From Mesorhizobium sp. (lineage in GTDB: Bacteria > Pseudomonadota > Alphaproteobacteria > Rhizobiales > Rhizobiaceae), in assembly GCA_022833215.1 (NCBI GenBank), contig JAIPUZ010000018.1:1-48009 (forward strand): a stretch of DNA of 48,009 bases. Direction: 5' to 3'. Both the position numbers and the translations under genes were made by a program. The notes beneath the pieces are model-generated. The model ran no database searches. It was not told the origin of the DNA and saw only the letters and a program-made list of their open reading frames with translations. Numbering within the stretch: position 1 is the stretch's first letter; each line of letters begins with the position of its first letter. Shown here piece after piece: positions 5,785-29,583 of this stretch.

Positions 5785-6072
5785 CTACTCCACGACCTTC
5801 GGCACAAGGAAGAAATTCTCTTCCGTCGCAGGTGCATTGGCGACGATATCGTCGGCCTTGTTGCCGTCGGTCACCGCATCGGCGCGCTTCTTCATGTCCA
5901 TCGGGATCACCGAGGTCATTGGCTCGACGCCGGACACGTCCACCTCGTTCAGCTGTTCGACGAAGCCCAGGATGGAATTGAGCTTGCCGGCCATGACAGT
6001 CGCCTCCTCCTCGCTTACCGCAATGCGTGCGAGGCGCGCGACGCGCTTGACCGTATCCAGATCGACCGACAT
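5785..6072 (-). CDS. gatC: Asp-tRNA(Asn)/Glu-tRNA(Gln) amidotransferase subunit C
   Basis: GatC is the small subunit that stabilises GatA and wraps around GatA and GatB. The 95-residue length is typical. The protein starts with [20 protein letters not shown], the conserved N-terminal helix, and carries the [21 protein letters not shown] segment and the later P-M-T-S-V motif found across the family. It is the first gene of the gatC-GNAT-gatA-ydcF run. gatB is not in this window, which is common in alphaproteobacteria. A good promoter lies about 40 bp upstream. Confidence 0.96.
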
Positions 6073-6111
6073 GTGAAAGTCCGCTTCAAAGCCTGTTTTG
6101 AACCTGCCTGC

Positions 6112-6140
6112 GCTATAGCGGGCGAGGCAGGCAGGTGCAA
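6112..6140 (-). promoter_or_regulatory. Probable sigma-70 promoter of gatC-GNAT-gatA
   Basis: On the minus strand a TTGCAC -35 box (6135-6140) and a TATAGC -10 box (6112-6117) are separated by 17 bp, which would start transcription near 6105 and leave a leader of about 33 bases. The -10 box lies inside a perfect 10-bp palindrome (6111-6120), itself flanked by 9-bp inverted arms (6102-6110 and 6128-6136). The assignment is by eye. Confidence 0.5.
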
Positions 6141-6153
6141 CATCAACTGCCGA

Positions 6154-6861
6154 TCAGATGTCTGTCGGTTCGCCTATCTTCGGCAAAGCGACCCTGACGC
6201 CAGAGCCTTCCATGCCTTCAACGAACCTGTCGGCCGTCTGGTCGAGAAGCGGGAACGTGCCGAAATGACAAGGCACAACGGTCTCGAAATTGAAGAAGCG
6301 CCGGCAGGCAAGCGCCGCCACCGCCCCGCCCATGGTGAAACGATCGCCGACCGGCACGATACCGATCTTCGGCTCGTGCAGCTCGTTGATCAGCGCCATG
6401 TCGGAGAAAATGTCGGTATCGCCCATGTGATAGAGCGTCGGCGCATCCGGGAAATGCAGCACAAGCCCGCCCGGATTGCCGAGATAGGTGTTGCCGCCGC
6501 CATCCGCCGATGCCGAAGAGGAATGCAGCGCCTGCACGAAGGTGGCCGTGAAGCCGCCGCAATCGACGGTTCCGCCGATATTGCCGGGATTGATCCTGTC
6601 CCCGCTGACGCCCTTGCCGACCAGATACATGCAGATCTCGAAATTGGCGACCAGCATGGCGCCGGACTTTTTCAGGATCTCCACCGCACCGCTGATATGG
6701 TCGTCATGGCCGTGGGTGAGCAGCACATGGGTCACGCCCTCGGCGGGATCTTCCCAGCCACCCTGCCAGACGGGATTGCCGACGAGATAAGGATCGATGA
6801 GGATTTTGGCATCGCCCGCCTCGATACAGAATGCGGAATGGCCATACCAGGTCAGTTTCAT
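6154..6861 (-). CDS. UPF0173 family metal-dependent hydrolase
   Basis: The 235-residue product is a metallo-beta-lactamase-fold hydrolase of the UPF0173 family. The start [20 protein letters not shown] is characteristic, and the metal-binding motif [12 protein letters not shown] (H-x-H-x-D-H) is intact, with further metal-ligand regions at YHMGDTDIF and near VPCHFGTFP. The true substrate of this family is not established. It is divergent from ruvX (74 bp between starts) and lies upstream of gatC on the same strand, but the promoter in front of gatC suggests separate transcription. Confidence 0.92.
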
Positions 6862-9668: not shown

Positions 9669-9697
9669 TTGCAGGTCACTTCCGCTGGCCGTATAGC
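9669..9697 (+). promoter_or_regulatory. Probable promoter of pyrB, placing the start almost at the ATG
   Basis: A TTGCAG -35 box (9669-9674), a 17-bp spacer and a TATAGC -10 box (9692-9697) match the alphaproteobacterial sigma-70 pattern and mirror the gatC promoter. The expected start (about 9703-9705) lies only 4-6 bases before the pyrB ATG at 9709, and no Shine-Dalgarno sequence is seen there. I infer a nearly leaderless mRNA. Confidence 0.45.
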
Positions 9698-9708
9698 ACC
9701 CCGCTGAG

Positions 9709-10677
9709 ATGACCCATACAGACGCGCCCCTGCCGCTCTTTCCCCACCGCCATCTGCTTGGCATCAGGGACCTTTCTCCCCCCGATATAGAGATTTTGCT
9801 CGACCGGGCCGACCGGGCCGTCTCCATCTCGCGACAATCCGAGAAGAAGACCTCGACCCTGCGCGGGCGCACACAGATCAACCTCTTCTTCGAATCCTCG
9901 ACCAGAACCCAGTCGTCGTTCGAACTTGCCGGCAAGCGCCTTGGCGCCGATGTCATGAACATGTCCGTGGCAAGCTCTTCCGTGAAGAAGGGCGAAACGC
10001 TGATCGACACGGCCATGACGCTCAACGCCATGCGCCCCGACATACTCATCATCCGCCACCAGTCTGCCGGAGCGGCCGCCCTTCTGGCGCAAAAGGTCGG
10101 CTGTTCGGTGGTGAATGCGGGTGACGGCACGCACGAGCATCCGACACAGGCGCTGCTCGATGCGCTTACCATTCGCCGTGCCAAGGGACGGATCGGCGGA
10201 CTGACGGTCGCCATCTGCGGCGATATCCTCCACTCGCGCGTCGCCCGGTCCAACATCATCCTGCTCAATGCGCTGGGTGCACAGGTTCGCGTGGTTGCGC
10301 CATCGACCCTGATGCCCTCCGGCATCGAACAGATGAGCGTCAACGTCTTCCGCAGCATGGAAGAAGGGCTGAAAGGCGCAGATGTCGTGATGATGCTGCG
10401 CCTGCAACGCGAGCGCATGGCGGGCAGCTTCGTTCCTTCGGTGCGCGAATATTTCCGCTATTTCGGTCTCGATGCCGAAAAGCTGAAAGCGGCGAAGGAA
10501 GATGCGCTGGTCATGCACCCGGGCCCCATGAACCGGGGCGTCGAGATCGCCTCAGAGATCGCGGACGGGCCGCAAAGCGTCATTCAGGAACAGGTGGAAA
10601 TGGGCGTCGCGGTGCGCATGGCGGTCATGGAGGCGCTGCTCGATCCGCGCCGCAATCCGGAAGGACCGGACGCATGA
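9709..10677 (+). CDS. pyrB: Aspartate carbamoyltransferase catalytic subunit
   Basis: This enzyme joins carbamoyl phosphate to aspartate, the committed step of pyrimidine synthesis. The 322-residue protein contains the carbamoyl-phosphate motif F-E-S-S-T-R-T, the [15 protein letters not shown] loop (with the Ser/Lys reaching the neighbouring active site), the [13 protein letters not shown] motif and the C-terminal [12 protein letters not shown] motif. Catalytic residues appear intact. Its TGA overlaps the pyrC-like ATG (ATGA), showing translational coupling with a dihydroorotase-like partner, as in the PyrB-PyrC-type complexes known from other proteobacteria. No pyrI regulatory gene is seen nearby. 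Confidence 0.97.
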
Positions 10678-24966: not shown

Positions 24967-25704
24967 TTACGGAGCCTCGTCCGGAAAATCCGGAAGTTGC
25001 TGGAAAGCAGCCTTCAGGGCGGCTGACCACCCGTCCGAAACGGTGCGGTAATAGGTGTCGTCCTGCCCGATGCGCTTCTTCAGGCTCACCCTGAAGCTGT
25101 CGCGCCCGTAGAAAAGCAGATCCAGCGGCAAGCCGACCGACAGGTTCGACTTCAGGGTTGAATCGAAGGAAACGAGCATGAGCTTCGCGGCTTCCGCGAA
25201 AGTCATCTGCCGGTCGTAGGCGCGGATGAGGATCGGCTTGCCGTATTTCGTTTCCCCGATCTGGAAGAACGGCGTATCGTCCGTCGCCTCGATGAAATTC
25301 CCTTCCGGATAGATCATGAAAAGGCGCGGCTCGGAGCCGCGAATCTGGCCGCCCAGAATAAAGGATGCTCCGAAGGCGTCGGCATTCTGCCCGGCGGGAG
25401 CAGATCCTGCGATCACCTCCTTCACCGTATCGCCAACCAGCCTGGCGGTCTGGTACATGGACGGGGTTTCCATAACCGTGGAATGACGGTCGGGAACGGC
25501 CTTGCTGCGTTCCTCCAGCAAGCTGACAACCGCCTGCGTGGTGGCGAGGTTTCCGGCAGACATCAGCACGATGACACGCTCTCCGGGCTCTTCCCACACA
25601 TGCATCTTGCGAAAGCTGGAGATGGAATCCATGCCTGCATTGGTGCGCGTGTCCGACATGAACACGAGCCCGCGATCGATCTGCAATCCTACGCAATAGG
25701 TCAT
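24967..25704 (-). CDS. Anbu-type proteasome-related peptidase
   Basis: This 245-residue protein is a member of the Anbu family (COG3484), an ancestral relative of proteasome beta subunits with an Ntn-hydrolase fold. It starts MTYCVGLQ, so removal of Met exposes the catalytic Thr1; Asp17 (FMSDTRTN) and Lys32 match the proteasome active-site Asp17 and Lys33. The start at 25704 is chosen to expose this Thr; a longer reading to 25749 would bury it. No ribosome site is convincing. Anbu proteins assemble into open helical or ring-like oligomers; substrates are unknown. It follows a rhizobial palindromic repeat and the transglutaminase gene on the same strand. Confidence 0.92.
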   Translation of the reverse strand: MTYCVGLQIDRGLVFMSDTRTNAGMDSISSFRKMHVWEEPGERVIVLMSAGNLATTQAVVSLLEERSKAVPDRHSTVMETPSMYQTARLVGDTVKEVIAGSAPAGQNADAFGASFILGGQIRGSEPRLFMIYPEGNFIEATDDTPFFQIGETKYGKPILIRAYDRQMTFAEAAKLMLVSFDSTLKSNLSVGLPLDLLFYGRDSFRVSLKKRIGQDDTYYRTVSDGWSAALKAAFQQLPDFPDEAP

Positions 25705-25782
25705 GGAATCTGTTCCGGCGGCGTTATGAAGCGTGTCGCGATCTTCCAAATCGCTCCTTACGCTTTAAGTTCTTGTTGTTGC

Positions 25783-25827
25783 GCATGTCGTTGTCCCGAA
25801 ACCGGTTCCCACTTTCGGGCGACATGC
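25783..25827. repeat. Rhizobial palindromic intergenic repeat (motif-A/RIME type)
   Basis: A 45-bp imperfect palindrome has outer arms GCATGTCG/CGACATGC and inner arms CCCGAAA/TTTCGGG around a CCGGTTCCCAC loop; a TTGT bulge lies on the left side. The sequence closely resembles the dispersed palindromic elements of Rhizobiaceae and relatives, which carry a GAAACCGGTT-CCACTTT core. It lies in the gap between the transglutaminase and Anbu genes. I saw no second copy in the window. Confidence 0.8.
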
Positions 25828-25838
25828 TTCAGGCGGCA

Positions 25839-26633
25839 TTACTGCTCCACTGTGATCGCAACCGCAAGCCGTTCTTCCGCCTGTCCCAACCGTATGCCGG
25901 AGATGGGCATGGCATCCTGATAGTCACGTCCCACGGCAATGCGCACATAGCGCTGGTCCGGTGAAATACCGTTGGATGCATCGAACCCCACCCACCCCAG
26001 CTTCGGCACGAAGGCTTCGGCCCATGCATGGCTGGCCGTCTGCTCGACGGTTCCCTCCATCATCAGATAGCCGCTGACATAGCGTGCAGGGAATCCCATG
26101 GCACGGGCGGCCGAGACGAAGACGTGGCTGTGATCCTGACAAACGCCCGCCCCCTGGGCAAGCGCCTCCTCGGCGGTCGTATGCGTCGTGGTCGTTCCCG
26201 TCGTATAGCTGACGCGGTCGCGGATCAGCGCCATCAGGCGGTGAAGCCTGTCCAGTTCCGAACCCTCCCCGGCCATGACGGCAAGCTCCTCAACGCCTTT
26301 ACCCGGCCGGGTCAGAGGCGTTTCATGGCAAAACAGCCATAAAGGAGCGAAACCGCAGCGCGTGCCGTAGACGCCCGCCGTATCGAGCGTATCGACCTCG
26401 CCGCTGACCTGAACGACGATGCGGTGCGGTGCGCCTTCCACGCTGACCAGCCTCGTTTCATTCTCGAACTGGTCACTGAAACAAACTTCCTCTCGCGCGC
26501 CTTCTATATCCAGCGACCATGAGCAGACGATCTGCGTCGGTCCGCTTGCAGGGGTAAGACGCAGGCGCTGCAACGCATAGTGCAGCGGGGCGTCGTAGGC
26601 ATATTCGGTCCGGTGAACGATCTTCAGCCTCAT
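25839..26633 (-). CDS. Transglutaminase-like protease
   Basis: This 264-residue protein carries an N-terminal bacterial transglutaminase-like domain (residues ~1-80, MRLKIVHRTEYAYDAPLHYA) and a papain-fold core with an intact Cys-His-Asp triad: Cys165 (GAGVCQDHSH), His202 (ASHAWAEAF) and Asp218 (WVGFDASNG). In this family the core usually acts as a cysteine protease or amidase rather than a cross-linking enzyme. The ATG at 26633 follows GAGG. Eight bases separate it from the alpha-E gene stop. Its recurring partners (Anbu, alpha-E, ATP-grasp) suggest action on a peptide or peptide-tagged substrate. Confidence 0.92.
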   Translation of the reverse strand: MRLKIVHRTEYAYDAPLHYALQRLRLTPASGPTQIVCSWSLDIEGAREEVCFSDQFENETRLVSVEGAPHRIVVQVSGEVDTLDTAGVYGTRCGFAPLWLFCHETPLTRPGKGVEELAVMAGEGSELDRLHRLMALIRDRVSYTTGTTTTHTTAEEALAQGAGVCQDHSHVFVSAARAMGFPARYVSGYLMMEGTVEQTASHAWAEAFVPKLGWVGFDASNGISPDQRYVRIAVGRDYQDAMPISGIRLGQAEERLAVAITVEQ

Positions 26634-26641
26634 GCCGCACC

Positions 26642-27583
26642 TCAACAGAAGCTGTAGTCGCCGGCGATTTCGTCGCCCAGCCGTGTGTTGTCCCGGATGA
26701 AGTCGACCAGAAATTCATGCAGGCCGGAATCGAATATGTCCTTGATCGAACCGGCCTTCAGCAACGACCGTGTCTTGTGCGCCGTCTCGTGGCAGGCATG
26801 GCGCTGGCCGTAATCCCCGGCCAGCAGTTCGAGATGCTCGTTGATGAAACGGTAGCAGAAAGCGAGCGAACGCGGCATGCGACCGTTGAGGATCAGGTAA
26901 TCAGCGATATTGGCCGGCCGGTAGGTGGCCTCGTAGTTCCAGCGGTAGGACCGGTGCGCCGAAACCGACCGCAGGATCGACTCCCACTGGTAATTGTCCA
27001 TGGTCGAACCGACCCATGAAATCGACGGCAGCAGCACATAATATTTGACGTCGAGAATGCGTGCGGTGTTGTCGGCGCGCTCCACATAGGTTCCGAGCTG
27101 TGAAAAATCGAAAATCTCGTTGCGCAGCATGGTTCCGTAAAAAGCGCCGCGGATCAGGGCTGTCTCGCGCTTGATGCGATCCAGAACGGCCGGCAGCTCA
27201 CGGTCGTCAATCGGGGCGGCAAGCATGCGCTTCAGCGCCATCCAGGCTTCGTTGATGCTTTCCCAGGTCTCGCGCGTCAGCGCCGTGCGCACCATCCGCG
27301 CATTGTTGCGGGCGGTTTCGATGGACGACATGACCGAGGAAGGATTCGAGGTGTCCCGCAGCAGAAAATCGGTAACGGTAGCGGCGCTGTACTCGGTATT
27401 TCTGTTTGCGAATGCGGCATCGGAACCGGCGCTCACAACGACCGAATGCCATTCCCCGGACGCGTCCTCGGTGCGGGTAAGCGCCATACGCAGTCCCGCA
27501 TCGACAAGCCGCGCCATGTTCTCGGCTCGCTCGATATAGCGGTTCATCCAGTAGAGTCCGTTTGCAGTGCGGCCGAGGAGCAT
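26642..27583 (-). CDS. Alpha-E domain protein (COG2307)
   Basis: The 313-residue product consists of one mainly helical alpha-E domain. Visible motifs are LLGRTANGLYWMNRYIERAENMARL at the N-terminus, the NPSSVMSSIETARNNARMVR motif, TRETWESINE and the YVERADNTARILDVKYYVLLP segment. Its activity is unknown; the domain occurs with, or fused to, circularly permuted ATP-grasp proteins and is thought to form part of the same peptide-forming machinery. The ATG at 27583 gives the family start; a TTG reading to 27619 is possible but less likely. Confidence 0.9.
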   Translation of the reverse strand: MLLGRTANGLYWMNRYIERAENMARLVDAGLRMALTRTEDASGEWHSVVVSAGSDAAFANRNTEYSAATVTDFLLRDTSNPSSVMSSIETARNNARMVRTALTRETWESINEAWMALKRMLAAPIDDRELPAVLDRIKRETALIRGAFYGTMLRNEIFDFSQLGTYVERADNTARILDVKYYVLLPSISWVGSTMDNYQWESILRSVSAHRSYRWNYEATYRPANIADYLILNGRMPRSLAFCYRFINEHLELLAGDYGQRHACHETAHKTRSLLKAGSIKDIFDSGLHEFLVDFIRDNTRLGDEIAGDYSFC

Positions 27584-27688
27584 GAGGTTTACCCGCAACA
27601 AGCTGACATTGGATGGCAAACGGGGCTCCGGCGCGGTTTCATGTCTCCTGTTCCGGCAACATGCTGCATCGGTTTCGCCATCCTTTCG

Positions 27689-29128
27689 TCAGTCATCCAG
27701 CACCCAGGTGTCCTTGGTGCCACCGCCCTGGGAGGAGTTGACCACCAGCGATCCTTCCTTCAGCGCCACCCGCGTCAGCCCGCCCGGCACGATACGGATG
27801 CGATCCGAGACCAGCACATAGGGCCTCAGGTCGACATGACGCGGCGCCAGCCCCTTTTCCGTCAGCACGGGGCAGGTCGAGAGCGCCAGCGTCGGCTGGG
27901 CGATATAGTTGCCGGGATTGGCGGCGAGCTTGGCGGCGAAGGCTTCCCGTTCGGCTTTGACGGCGGCCGGCCCCACCAGCATTCCGTAACCGCCGGAGCC
28001 GTGAACCTCCTTGATGACGAGTTCGGCAATGTGCTCGAGCACATATTTCAGGCTGTCCGGTTCAGAGCAGCGCCAGGTCGGGACGTTGCCGAGGATCGCC
28101 TTGCGGCCGGTGTAAAACTCCACGATCTCGGGCATATAGGAATAGATGGCCTTGTCGTCGGCAATGCCGGTGCCGGGTGCATTGGCGATGGTGATGTTGC
28201 CGGCCCGGTAGATGTCCATGATGCCGGCCACGCCGAGCACGGAATCCGGCTGGAATGTCAGCGGATCGAGGAACGCGTCATCGACCCGGCGATAGAGCAC
28301 GTCGATCTGCTTGTAGCCCTCGGTGGTGCGCATGGCGATATGGCCGTTTACCACGCGCAGATCCTGCCCTTCGACCAGTTGCACGCCCATCTGGTCGGCC
28401 AGGAAGGCATGCTCGAAATAGGCGGAATTGTAGCTGCCTGGCGTCAGCACTGCGATGGTGGGCTCGCCGCCCGCTCCGGATGGAGCCACCCCCGCAAGCG
28501 ACTGGCGCAGCAATTGCGGATAGTTCTCGACAGGGCAGACCCGGATTTTCTGGAAAAGCTCCGGGAAGAGCTGCATCATCGTCTCGCGGTTCTCCAGCAT
28601 ATAGGAGACGCCGGACGGAGTGCGGGCATTGTCCTCCAGCACGTAGAATTCATCTTCGCCGGTGCGCACGATGTCGACGCCGATGATATGCGTGTAGACG
28701 CCGGCCGGCGGCCGCACGCCGATCATTTCCGGCAGGAAGGCCGCATTTCTGGCAATCAGTTCCTTCGGAATGCGGCCCGCGCGCAGGATTTCCTGCCGGT
28801 GGTAGATGTCGTCCAGAAAAGCGTTCAGCGCCTGCACGCGCTGCTCGATGCCCTGCGTCAGGCGGCGCCATTCGCGGCCGGAGATAATGCGCGGAACGAT
28901 ATCGAAGGGGATGAGGCGCTCAGATGCCTCCTGCTCTCCGTAGACGGCAAAAGTGATGCCGGTCTTGCGGAACACCCGCTCGGCATCCTCCATCTTCTCC
29001 GTCAGTCTTGCAGGATCCTGTTCCCTGAGCCAGCGCTCATAGGCCGTGTAGGGCTTTCTAGGTCCGGATGATGCATCCGGAAGCATCTCATCGAATGCCG
29101 CCAAGCGCGTTCTCCCCATCGGCATCAT
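27689..29128 (-). CDS. Circularly permuted ATP-grasp protein (COG2308)
   Basis: This 479-residue protein is a circularly permuted ATP-grasp enzyme, a fold that typically makes peptide or amide bonds through acyl-phosphates. Visible family motifs are IPFDIVPRIISGREWRRLTQG-like sequence, the VYTHIIGVDIVRTGEDEFYVLEDNARTPSGVSYMLENR segment (ATP/Mg binding, E-D-N), the DAFLDPLTFQPDS loop, ADDKAIYSYMPEI and VIKEVHGSGGYGMLVGP with the ATP-grasp glycine-rich loop. Several ATG codons lie at the start (29128, 29125, 29119); the first is used. It is the promoter-proximal gene of the four-gene cluster. The substrates are unknown. Confidence 0.92.
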   Translation of the reverse strand: MMPMGRTRLAAFDEMLPDASSGPRKPYTAYERWLREQDPARLTEKMEDAERVFRKTGITFAVYGEQEASERLIPFDIVPRIISGREWRRLTQGIEQRVQALNAFLDDIYHRQEILRAGRIPKELIARNAAFLPEMIGVRPPAGVYTHIIGVDIVRTGEDEFYVLEDNARTPSGVSYMLENRETMMQLFPELFQKIRVCPVENYPQLLRQSLAGVAPSGAGGEPTIAVLTPGSYNSAYFEHAFLADQMGVQLVEGQDLRVVNGHIAMRTTEGYKQIDVLYRRVDDAFLDPLTFQPDSVLGVAGIMDIYRAGNITIANAPGTGIADDKAIYSYMPEIVEFYTGRKAILGNVPTWRCSEPDSLKYVLEHIAELVIKEVHGSGGYGMLVGPAAVKAEREAFAAKLAANPGNYIAQPTLALSTCPVLTEKGLAPRHVDLRPYVLVSDRIRIVPGGLTRVALKEGSLVVNSSQGGGTKDTWVLDD

Positions 29129-29265
29129 TTGACATGACCTGCGGGGAGAAAATCAAGCGCAATCGCAACTTAGCCGGCACGAATGGGCAAAACAGGAGAA
29201 TACCGCCCGCGCGCAAGGCACGACAGCAGCTTTCAGGGCAACACCTGCCGCAAAAAACGATCAGA

Positions 29266-29502
29266 TCAGAAAGCGCGGAAGGTCACCGTCGTGAAGGTGT
29301 CCTTGATGCCGGGGATGATCTGCACCCGCTGATTCACGAAGTGACCGATGTCCTCGTCATCGTCGACATAGAACTTGGCCAGCAGATCGTACTGGCCGGC
29401 GGTGGAATAGATCTCGGACGCGATCTCGGTATCGGCAAGTTCGCTTGCAACCTCATAGGCTTTGCCGAGGTCGCACTTGATCTGCACGAAAAACGTCTTC
29501 AT
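29266..29502 (-). CDS. Stand-alone Lrp/AsnC-type ligand-binding (RAM) protein
   Basis: This 78-residue protein is one RAM domain (beta-alpha-beta-beta-alpha-beta) without a DNA-binding helix-turn-helix. The family signature MKTFFVQIKCDLGKAYEVA at the start, the STAGQYDLLAKFYVDDDEDIGHFV core and a terminal DTFTTVTFRAF strand are clear. Such proteins may bind amino acids or hetero-oligomerise with full-length Lrp proteins; this is family knowledge. The start at 29502 is preferred over the longer reading to 29574. It lies 81 bp after the tgt stop and 137 bp from the ATP-grasp gene. Confidence 0.85.
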   Translation of the reverse strand: MKTFFVQIKCDLGKAYEVASELADTEIASEIYSTAGQYDLLAKFYVDDDEDIGHFVNQRVQIIPGIKDTFTTVTFRAF

Positions 29503-29583
29503 CGCCTGTCCAGTCCGCATTCCGTTGTGATCATCTGTTGTCGCAGTTTGGCTGGCGGCTTGCAAGCCGGCCATCCGGGAGCC

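Follow-up and report, generated by a model that had tools for sequence, protein, structure and literature searches.

The question raised by this locus is what a set of four genes that includes Anbu, an Ntn-hydrolase of proteasome fold, does for its host. The genes lie on the minus strand of contig 18 (JAIPUZ010000018.1) of an alphaproteobacterial genome, Mesorhizobium sp., of which a stretch of 48,009 nucleotides was analysed (hereafter the window). In transcription order they encode a circularly permuted ATP-grasp ligase (AG), an alpha-E protein (AE), a transglutaminase-like enzyme (TG) and Anbu (Table 1). Anbu was described in 2008 (PMC5666114) and is credited to Valas and Bourne 2008 (as cited in PMC6376114, PMC5666114). 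The four-gene operon has also been described in print (PMC6376114, PMC5666114), and a role in peptide synthesis or tagging is credited to Iyer et al. 2009 (as cited in the same two papers). The initial annotation of the window was right that these families recur together, as was already published, and its idea of an undescribed pathway is not supported, since both the operon and the tagging hypothesis are in print.

We conclude that the window operon is an ordinary member of this known, unexplained Anbu operon. New are the counts of AG/AE co-occurrence, the sigma54- and NtrC-type sites before AG in relatives, a duplication within AE and a group of degraded fused paralogues. As for function, we tentatively put forward a nitrogen-starvation module that would make and then break small amide conjugates; among the explanations weighed below it appears the best candidate.

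Pfam, matches in the PDB and residue conservation all confirmed the initial assignment of four minus-strand genes with intact catalytic residues. AG matches PF14403 with 550 bits (curated cut-off 32), AE matches PF04168 with 316 bits (curated cut-off 20.8), TG matches PF01841 with 91.5 bits (cut-off 23) and PF08379 with 68.7 bits (cut-off 27), and Anbu matches PF00227 with 36.8 bits (cut-off 22.4). In phmmer searches against the PDB, the single solved relative of AG by sequence was 3n6x (E 1.3e-198), Anbu matched five distinct solved Anbu sequences (E 2.9e-94 to 3e-68), and AE had no solved relative by sequence, its one PDB hit lying at E 0.72. The glutathionylspermidine synthetase family was not matched by AG, for which Pfam returned two CP_ATPgrasp families only and phmmer against the PDB only 3n6x. 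Thr1, Asp17 and Lys32 of Anbu (open reading frame numbers 2, 18 and 33) are intact and 99-100% conserved (n = 120 sequences). The same holds for Cys165, His202 and Asp218 of TG, whose fold we take to be papain-like (99%, n = 145), and for Glu165-Asp166-Asn167 of AG (97%, n = 138; AG residues are numbered in the open reading frame counted from ATG 29128). AG also keeps K326, K373 and a glycine-rich loop; the conserved lysines and the E-D-N motif presumably serve in ATP handling. The Anbu operons of Y. bercovieri and P. putida (PP_2685-PP_2688) have the same four families, the same order and the same Anbu catalytic residues. Compared to that published operon, the window lacks a scoreable NtrC box as well as a sigma54 site, and it carries a repeat between TG and Anbu. 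The window Anbu shares 99% identity with the Anbu of Aquamicrobium defluvii DSM 11603, and the window's own genome holds one alpha-E match and one AG match only.

To describe how the genes are distributed, 100 Pseudomonadota genomes were drawn evenly from the phylum, and this one set was used for all family counts. AE was found in 59 genomes and AG over the cut-off likewise in 59 (60 counting one weak hit); the two occur together in these 59 and never apart. Bact_transglu_N is present in 57 genomes and Anbu in 40. Nearly all standalone AE genes (59/60) lie at most 400 bp from AG on the same strand, and 30 more AE copies sit in open frames that also contain AG. Anbu is accompanied by AG and AE in 39 of its 40 genomes, the exception being genome G094, and 20 of the 59 AG/AE genomes are without Anbu. 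The exact one-strand order AG-AE-TG-Anbu was observed for 21/40 Anbu genes from 12 families. AG and AE stand no more than 8 kb away in 33 of the 40 cases; one Anbu gene adjoins a large transglutaminase-like gene only, and the other six are unlinked. The gene set is therefore conserved far beyond close relatives, which answers the neighbourhood comparison proposed in the initial annotation.

A further set of named loci, the best 80 of 595 Anbu loci and biased to close relatives, contained exactly the four genes in 68 cases and the same four with overlapping frames in 2 more. The others showed an extra TG in front (3), a cut by the contig end (3), a rearranged order (1), no detected TG (two Aureimonas loci) or Anbu alone (one locus). 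Based on the co-occurrence counts, AG and AE look like the core of the system, with TG as the usual and Anbu as an accessory member. A second cluster, often adjoining the first, combines a fused ATP-grasp-alpha-E gene with a TG and a large transglutaminase-like protein (~1,100 residues), and its domains are homologous to those of the first.

Some individual loci deviate from the common arrangement. At locus L165 of G094, Anbu (6038-6784) retains Thr1, Asp17 and Lys32, and no AG, AE or Bact_transglu_N was found over the cut-off. A divergent Anbu homologue at L170 (G016, 9673-10575; 32% identity to that of the window) is unlinked to AG and AE and adjoins flagellar FlhF/FlhG-like genes, named by eye. 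We considered the context of unlinked Anbu genes as a functional clue and rejected it as uninformative, as the neighbours vary (MutS-like, FlhF/FlhG-like and others, by eye). In the Rhodobacteraceae, a second, divergent transglutaminase-like gene stands directly before AG at L102, L103 and L114, and before Anbu at L138.

Next, we analyzed the upstream regions of the operon for regulatory sites. Using a generic -24/-12 matrix and a site threshold score of 12, a sigma54-type site was found before AG in 24/59 genomes from 11 of 27 families, compared to 9/488 control upstreams of the same loci (Fisher p 9e-19) and 6/197 controls restricted to gaps of at least 100 bp (p 1.5e-12). Before the other cluster genes such sites are rare or absent (TG 0/57, AE 0/56, fused AG-AE 0/23, Anbu 1/40, large TG 2/27). 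The antisense strand of the AG upstreams gave 1/61, and column-permuted matrices gave a mean of 0.7 and a maximum of 5 of 61. The named loci stand closer to the window, and a score of 12 is reached by only 2/73 of them.

Regarding the regulator itself, the best-match NtrC locus encodes GAFTGA in 18/22 alphaproteobacterial genomes, 6 of which have a sigma54 score of at least 12; GAFTGA was not found in the remaining 4, all of which score below 12. The tie between the GAFTGA loop and the sigma54 site is suggestive, the genomes being few. Loss of GAFTGA was rejected as the cause of the window's missing sigma54 site, as the window's genus keeps this motif. The NtrC-profile matches in G083 (C1:2176345-2177664) and G099 (C2:239411-240733) are split and without profile positions 193-226, which may be the place of the sigma54-contact loop; both genomes have no sigma54 site before AG.

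An alignment of 23 upstream regions of the window's clade revealed a conserved inverted repeat of the form TGC-N11-GCA together with a TTGATT-like block. The spacing of 11 was present in 19/23 clade loci, which as the discovery set are not independent, and in 22/55 other named loci and 28/56 other phylum loci, compared to 143/1223 controls; other spacings from 6 to 16 reached at most 8/23, 11/55 and 11/56, respectively. Most Mesorhizobium-like loci carry two copies of the palindrome 42 or 43 bp apart. As an independent test, we used 29 of 32 matches to P-II genes in 15 alphaproteobacterial genomes, where spacing 11 occurred in 16/29 upstreams and other spacings in 2-9/29. We then built a matrix from 32 P-II sites alone, of which some stem from near relatives and others surely arose by chance. 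It scored at least 12 before AG in 25/59 phylum genomes versus 15/488 controls (p 4e-17) and in 28/72 named loci versus 27/1223 controls. The same matrix gave 0/40 for Anbu, 1/60 for AE, 4/64 for TG, 0/23 for the fusions and 2/27 for the large TG, and permuted palindromic matrices gave a mean of 0.8 and a maximum of 3 of 61.

In 20 whole genomes, a strict form of the palindrome was found ten times (7 genomes) and its reversed control twice (2 genomes). Five of these ten sites precede AG. Two more, both in G087, precede P-II-glnA and dusB-ntrB, genes whose identity Pfam and NCBIfam confirmed; ~2 kb beyond the latter lies an NtrC gene (TIGR01818). Because the palindrome also precedes these nitrogen genes, it is probably an NtrC box, and NtrC control of AG appears widespread from these site counts. 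The remaining three strict sites (L220, L224, L226) lie before or in unrelated, non-nitrogen genes; the sites at position 1501 of L224 (G083), before uvrC, and of L226 (G075), at the start of a CBM9-domain frame, are possibly chance. Overall, 42/59 genomes have a sigma54 site (score at least 12) or an NtrC box (at least 10) before AG, and 13 have both. The concentration of control sites before AG, and not before AE, TG or Anbu, is the pattern expected of one operon.

Published expression data are in line with a nitrogen response. In P. putida KT2440 under nitrogen limitation, induction of PP_2686-2688 amounted to 11- to 15-fold in the wild type and to 17- to 37-fold when relA/spoT were mutated; the authors assigned these genes to NtrB/NtrC (PMC7801951). 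A related cluster with a large TG in B. cenocepacia is NtrC- and sigma54-dependent and part of the NtrC regulon (PMC5491218), and in marine metagenomes domains of the operon are associated with urea-metabolism domains (PMC3597751). Our literature search, which left subscription papers mostly uncovered, gave among the entries listed no phylum-wide statement of nitrogen control of this operon. For mycobacterial nitrogen regulons, the searches returned nothing on this gene set, and a Caulobacter NtrC paper yielded hvyA alone, another transglutaminase homologue.

The second line of evidence concerns AE and its partner ligase. The AlphaFold2 model of AE (110 sequences) consists entirely of helices, with a predicted local distance difference test (pLDDT) score of 93.9 and a predicted template modelling (pTM) score of 0.92. 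ER motifs at E18-R19 and E168-R169 are conserved at 98-99% (n = 110 sequences). The two halves of the protein align over 147 columns with an hhalign score of 121 (E 2.5e-20), far above one reversed and eight shuffled controls (scores 11-17); AE thus consists of a unit of ~150 residues duplicated in tandem, with an ER motif in each half. The Pfam entries presumably already mention a duplication as well as active and inactive ATP-grasp forms. Searched against the PDB with Foldseek alone, the model had no match at E 0.001 (best E 0.41), and TM-scores did not exceed 0.33 in the best 50 of 104 rows.

In the fused AG-AE paralogues of the second cluster, E165, N167, D325, K326 and N464 are kept in 0/23 and K373 in 2/23, and the glycine loop is mostly lost; in standalone AG, all of these residues and the loop are kept in 40/40. 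The AE part of the fusions retains its ER motifs (22 or 23 of 23 per residue). Judged by these residues, the fusions seem to carry an inactive ATP-grasp alongside AE; as noted above, they also have no sigma54/NtrC signal. One of them, L194, was modelled with a pLDDT of 93.8 and a pTM of 0.91, and the latter value indicates a defined placement of its two domains. In the window, AE probably packs on AG as it does in this model.

The ligase domain of L194 has 3n6x as its closest fold neighbour (E 1e-31), followed by glutathione and homoglutathione synthetases (best E 6.4e-13) and, further away, by Cp1B, YjfC, glutathionylspermidine synthetase/amidase and trypanothione synthetase. The characterised neighbours are small-molecule ligases. 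Cp1B (9cjn, E 1.2e-07), a fungal ATP-grasp ligase of E-64 synthesis, couples an acid to an L-amino acid using ATP; its pathway belongs to fungal natural-product synthesis, and the excerpted account does not mention an alpha-E protein (PMC12568646). The match to glutathionylspermidine synthetase/amidase and trypanothione synthetase (2io7, 2vob; E 6.5e-07, 12% identity) is weak and was obtained via the fused paralogue. Glutathionylspermidine synthetase/amidase pairs a ligase of this fold with a papain-fold amidase; the window encodes its enzymes as distinct proteins, and that system has nothing corresponding to AE or Anbu.

On this basis, the module might work in three steps, with an overall logic like that of glutathionylspermidine synthetase/amidase. 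Judging from fold and motifs, AG together with AE would use ATP to join a carboxylate, for instance an amino acid or a short gamma-glutamyl-like peptide, to an amine. TG, as a cysteine enzyme, would then open or transfer this amide, and Anbu would hydrolyse the remaining short amide, so that nitrogen or amino acids could be recovered. Five points lead us to favour such a small-molecule cycle: the folds nearest to AG, the absence of an unfoldase gene from the operon, Anbu being an accessory member, the signs of nitrogen control in relatives, and the negative peptidase assays, in which several Anbu proteins left proteasome substrates uncleaved (PMC6376114).

Several observations weigh against this proposal. 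In P. putida, mutation of rpoN still left PP_2686-2688 up 14- to 20-fold. Anbu itself (PP_2685) changed only 1.12-fold in the wild type, compared to 4.81-fold in the relA/spoT mutant and 1.45-fold in the rpoN mutant (PMC7801951); these data therefore support a nitrogen response, and they support neither a strict need for sigma54 nor an equal induction of Anbu. Neither a sigma54 site nor an NtrC box was found in 17/59 genomes. The textbook NtrC consensus TGCACC-N5-GGTGCA was not enriched (at least 10 matches in 4/61 phylum and 2/73 named upstreams versus 35/1214 controls) and was replaced by the footprint-derived TGC-N11-GCA. The AG upstream of the window scores 4.0 with the sigma54 matrix (threshold 12) and 2.5 with the P-II matrix (A. 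defluvii 9.9); nitrogen control in the window is thus deduced from relatives, and it may be decaying here. Moreover, Anbu is unlinked in 6/40 genomes, one genome has it without AG, AE or TG, the fold neighbours were obtained with an inactive fused paralogue instead of the window AG, and a ligase of the AG fold could act on proteins. Our estimate for the amide cycle was left unchanged by the rpoN result and the fused-paralogue counts, since neither touches the enzyme chemistry.

The next-ranked explanation, which we regard as unlikely, is the one favoured by the initial annotation: AG and AE would attach a peptide or amine to proteins, TG would trim or transfer it, and Anbu would degrade the tagged proteins. 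The proteasome-type fold with its intact Thr1-Asp17-Lys32 agrees with this, as does the presence of two amide-forming enzyme types in one operon, and the idea is in print. We found no positive evidence for the degradation step; besides the uncleaved proteasome substrates, pull-downs with Anbu as bait gave no specific partner among the operon proteins, and the Y. bercovieri operon has no AAA+ gene (PMC6376114). An adjacent AAA+ unfoldase was likewise not matched in the three flanking genes of the window that were scanned (GlpR-type, AsnC-type and Tgt), the scan going no further out, and Anbu is missing from a third of the AG/AE genomes. Of the initial interpretation, the conserved gene set and the operon-like control remain; the signs of nitrogen regulation in relatives lay outside it.

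Two further explanations are each quite improbable. Bulk turnover in nitrogen starvation, a possibility raised in PMC6376114, would have Anbu free peptides from protein and TG split ammonia off glutamine side chains; the signals for nitrogen control in relatives and the P. putida induction fit, but AG and AE, the invariable core, would be left without a role, and Anbu was the least induced of the four genes in that data set. To a similar degree we doubt that Anbu and/or TG are transferases building a specific conjugate, like the proteasome homologue connectase, a protein ligase (PMC8665760). The absence of hydrolytic activity in the published in vitro assays (PMC6376114), the existence of a ligase relative in the family and the amide-forming context would suit such a role. 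Against it stand the absence of a substrate or product and the difference in assembly, connectase being a monomer and Anbu a split ring. That the genes are mere neighbours without one pathway, as the unlinked Anbu genes and the one genome with Anbu alone could suggest, is very improbable given the constant pairing of AG and AE, the exact four-gene order in 12 families and the control sites concentrated before AG.

The features of the locus are collected in Table 1. For AG, the most likely start is TTG 29104, preceded by a GGGGAG, and not ATG 29128, because TTG or GTG stands there in nearly all of 23 aligned relatives (judged by eye; L082 is the exception). Anbu most likely starts at ATG 25704, and ATG 27583 for AE and ATG 26633 for TG are the probable starts from relatives and sequence. 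The clade conserves the TTGATT block, which together with TCAAAT is putatively assigned to sigma70. The repeat in the TG-Anbu gap has 37 matches with at most 3 mismatches in the window's own genome, and the reversed control pattern has 0. This gap measures 134 bp in the window, partly widened by the repeat, and 34 bp in Mesorhizobium L066. Just upstream of AG, a stand-alone Lrp/AsnC ligand-binding domain is encoded (29266-29574, minus strand), for which no DNA-binding domain was matched. We rejected this AsnC-type protein as a fifth operon member; the same coding stretch occurs before AG in several Mesorhizobium-like loci, and elsewhere genes of other length and strand take its place.

Table 1. 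Features of the Anbu operon and its upstream region in the window.
Feature	Position	Strand	Basis
AG, circularly permuted ATP-grasp ligase	27689..29104	-	PF14403; PDB 3n6x; conservation; start from relatives' footprint
AE, alpha-E protein	26642..27583	-	PF04168; AlphaFold2 model; hhalign of halves
TG, transglutaminase-like enzyme	25839..26633	-	PF08379 and PF01841; conservation in 145 sequences
Anbu, Ntn-hydrolase of proteasome fold	24967..25704	-	PDB Anbu chains; alignment; conservation
Degenerate NtrC-type box, TGC-N11-GCG (relatives: TGC-N11-GCA)	29204..29220	-	Footprint; gap-specific enrichment in relatives
Putative sigma70-type promoter, TTGATT 29156-29151 and TCAAAT 29132-29127	29127..29156	-	Footprint, 23 upstream regions
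Shine-Dalgarno-like GGGGAG before TTG 29104	29112..29117	-	Sequence and footprint
Interspersed repeat in the TG-Anbu gap	25783..25804	-	37 own-genome matches

In its broadest form, our proposal would place the Anbu operon regularly in the NtrC nitrogen-starvation regulon across Pseudomonadota. Its enzymes would run a small-molecule amide cycle, Anbu would hydrolyse or transfer a nitrogen-salvage metabolite, and alpha-E would be a new fold that partners the ligase in substrate binding; that all of this holds together is rather unlikely. Anbu has solved structures, yet no known substrate or function, and the added value of the present analysis is regulatory and structural, in that it offers a condition and a regulator for testing that function. 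The alpha-E model, which has no match in the PDB, represents a fold worth solving. Should much of the phylum indeed use the operon in its response to nitrogen starvation, a growth condition, a regulator and a class of molecules would be named for testing.

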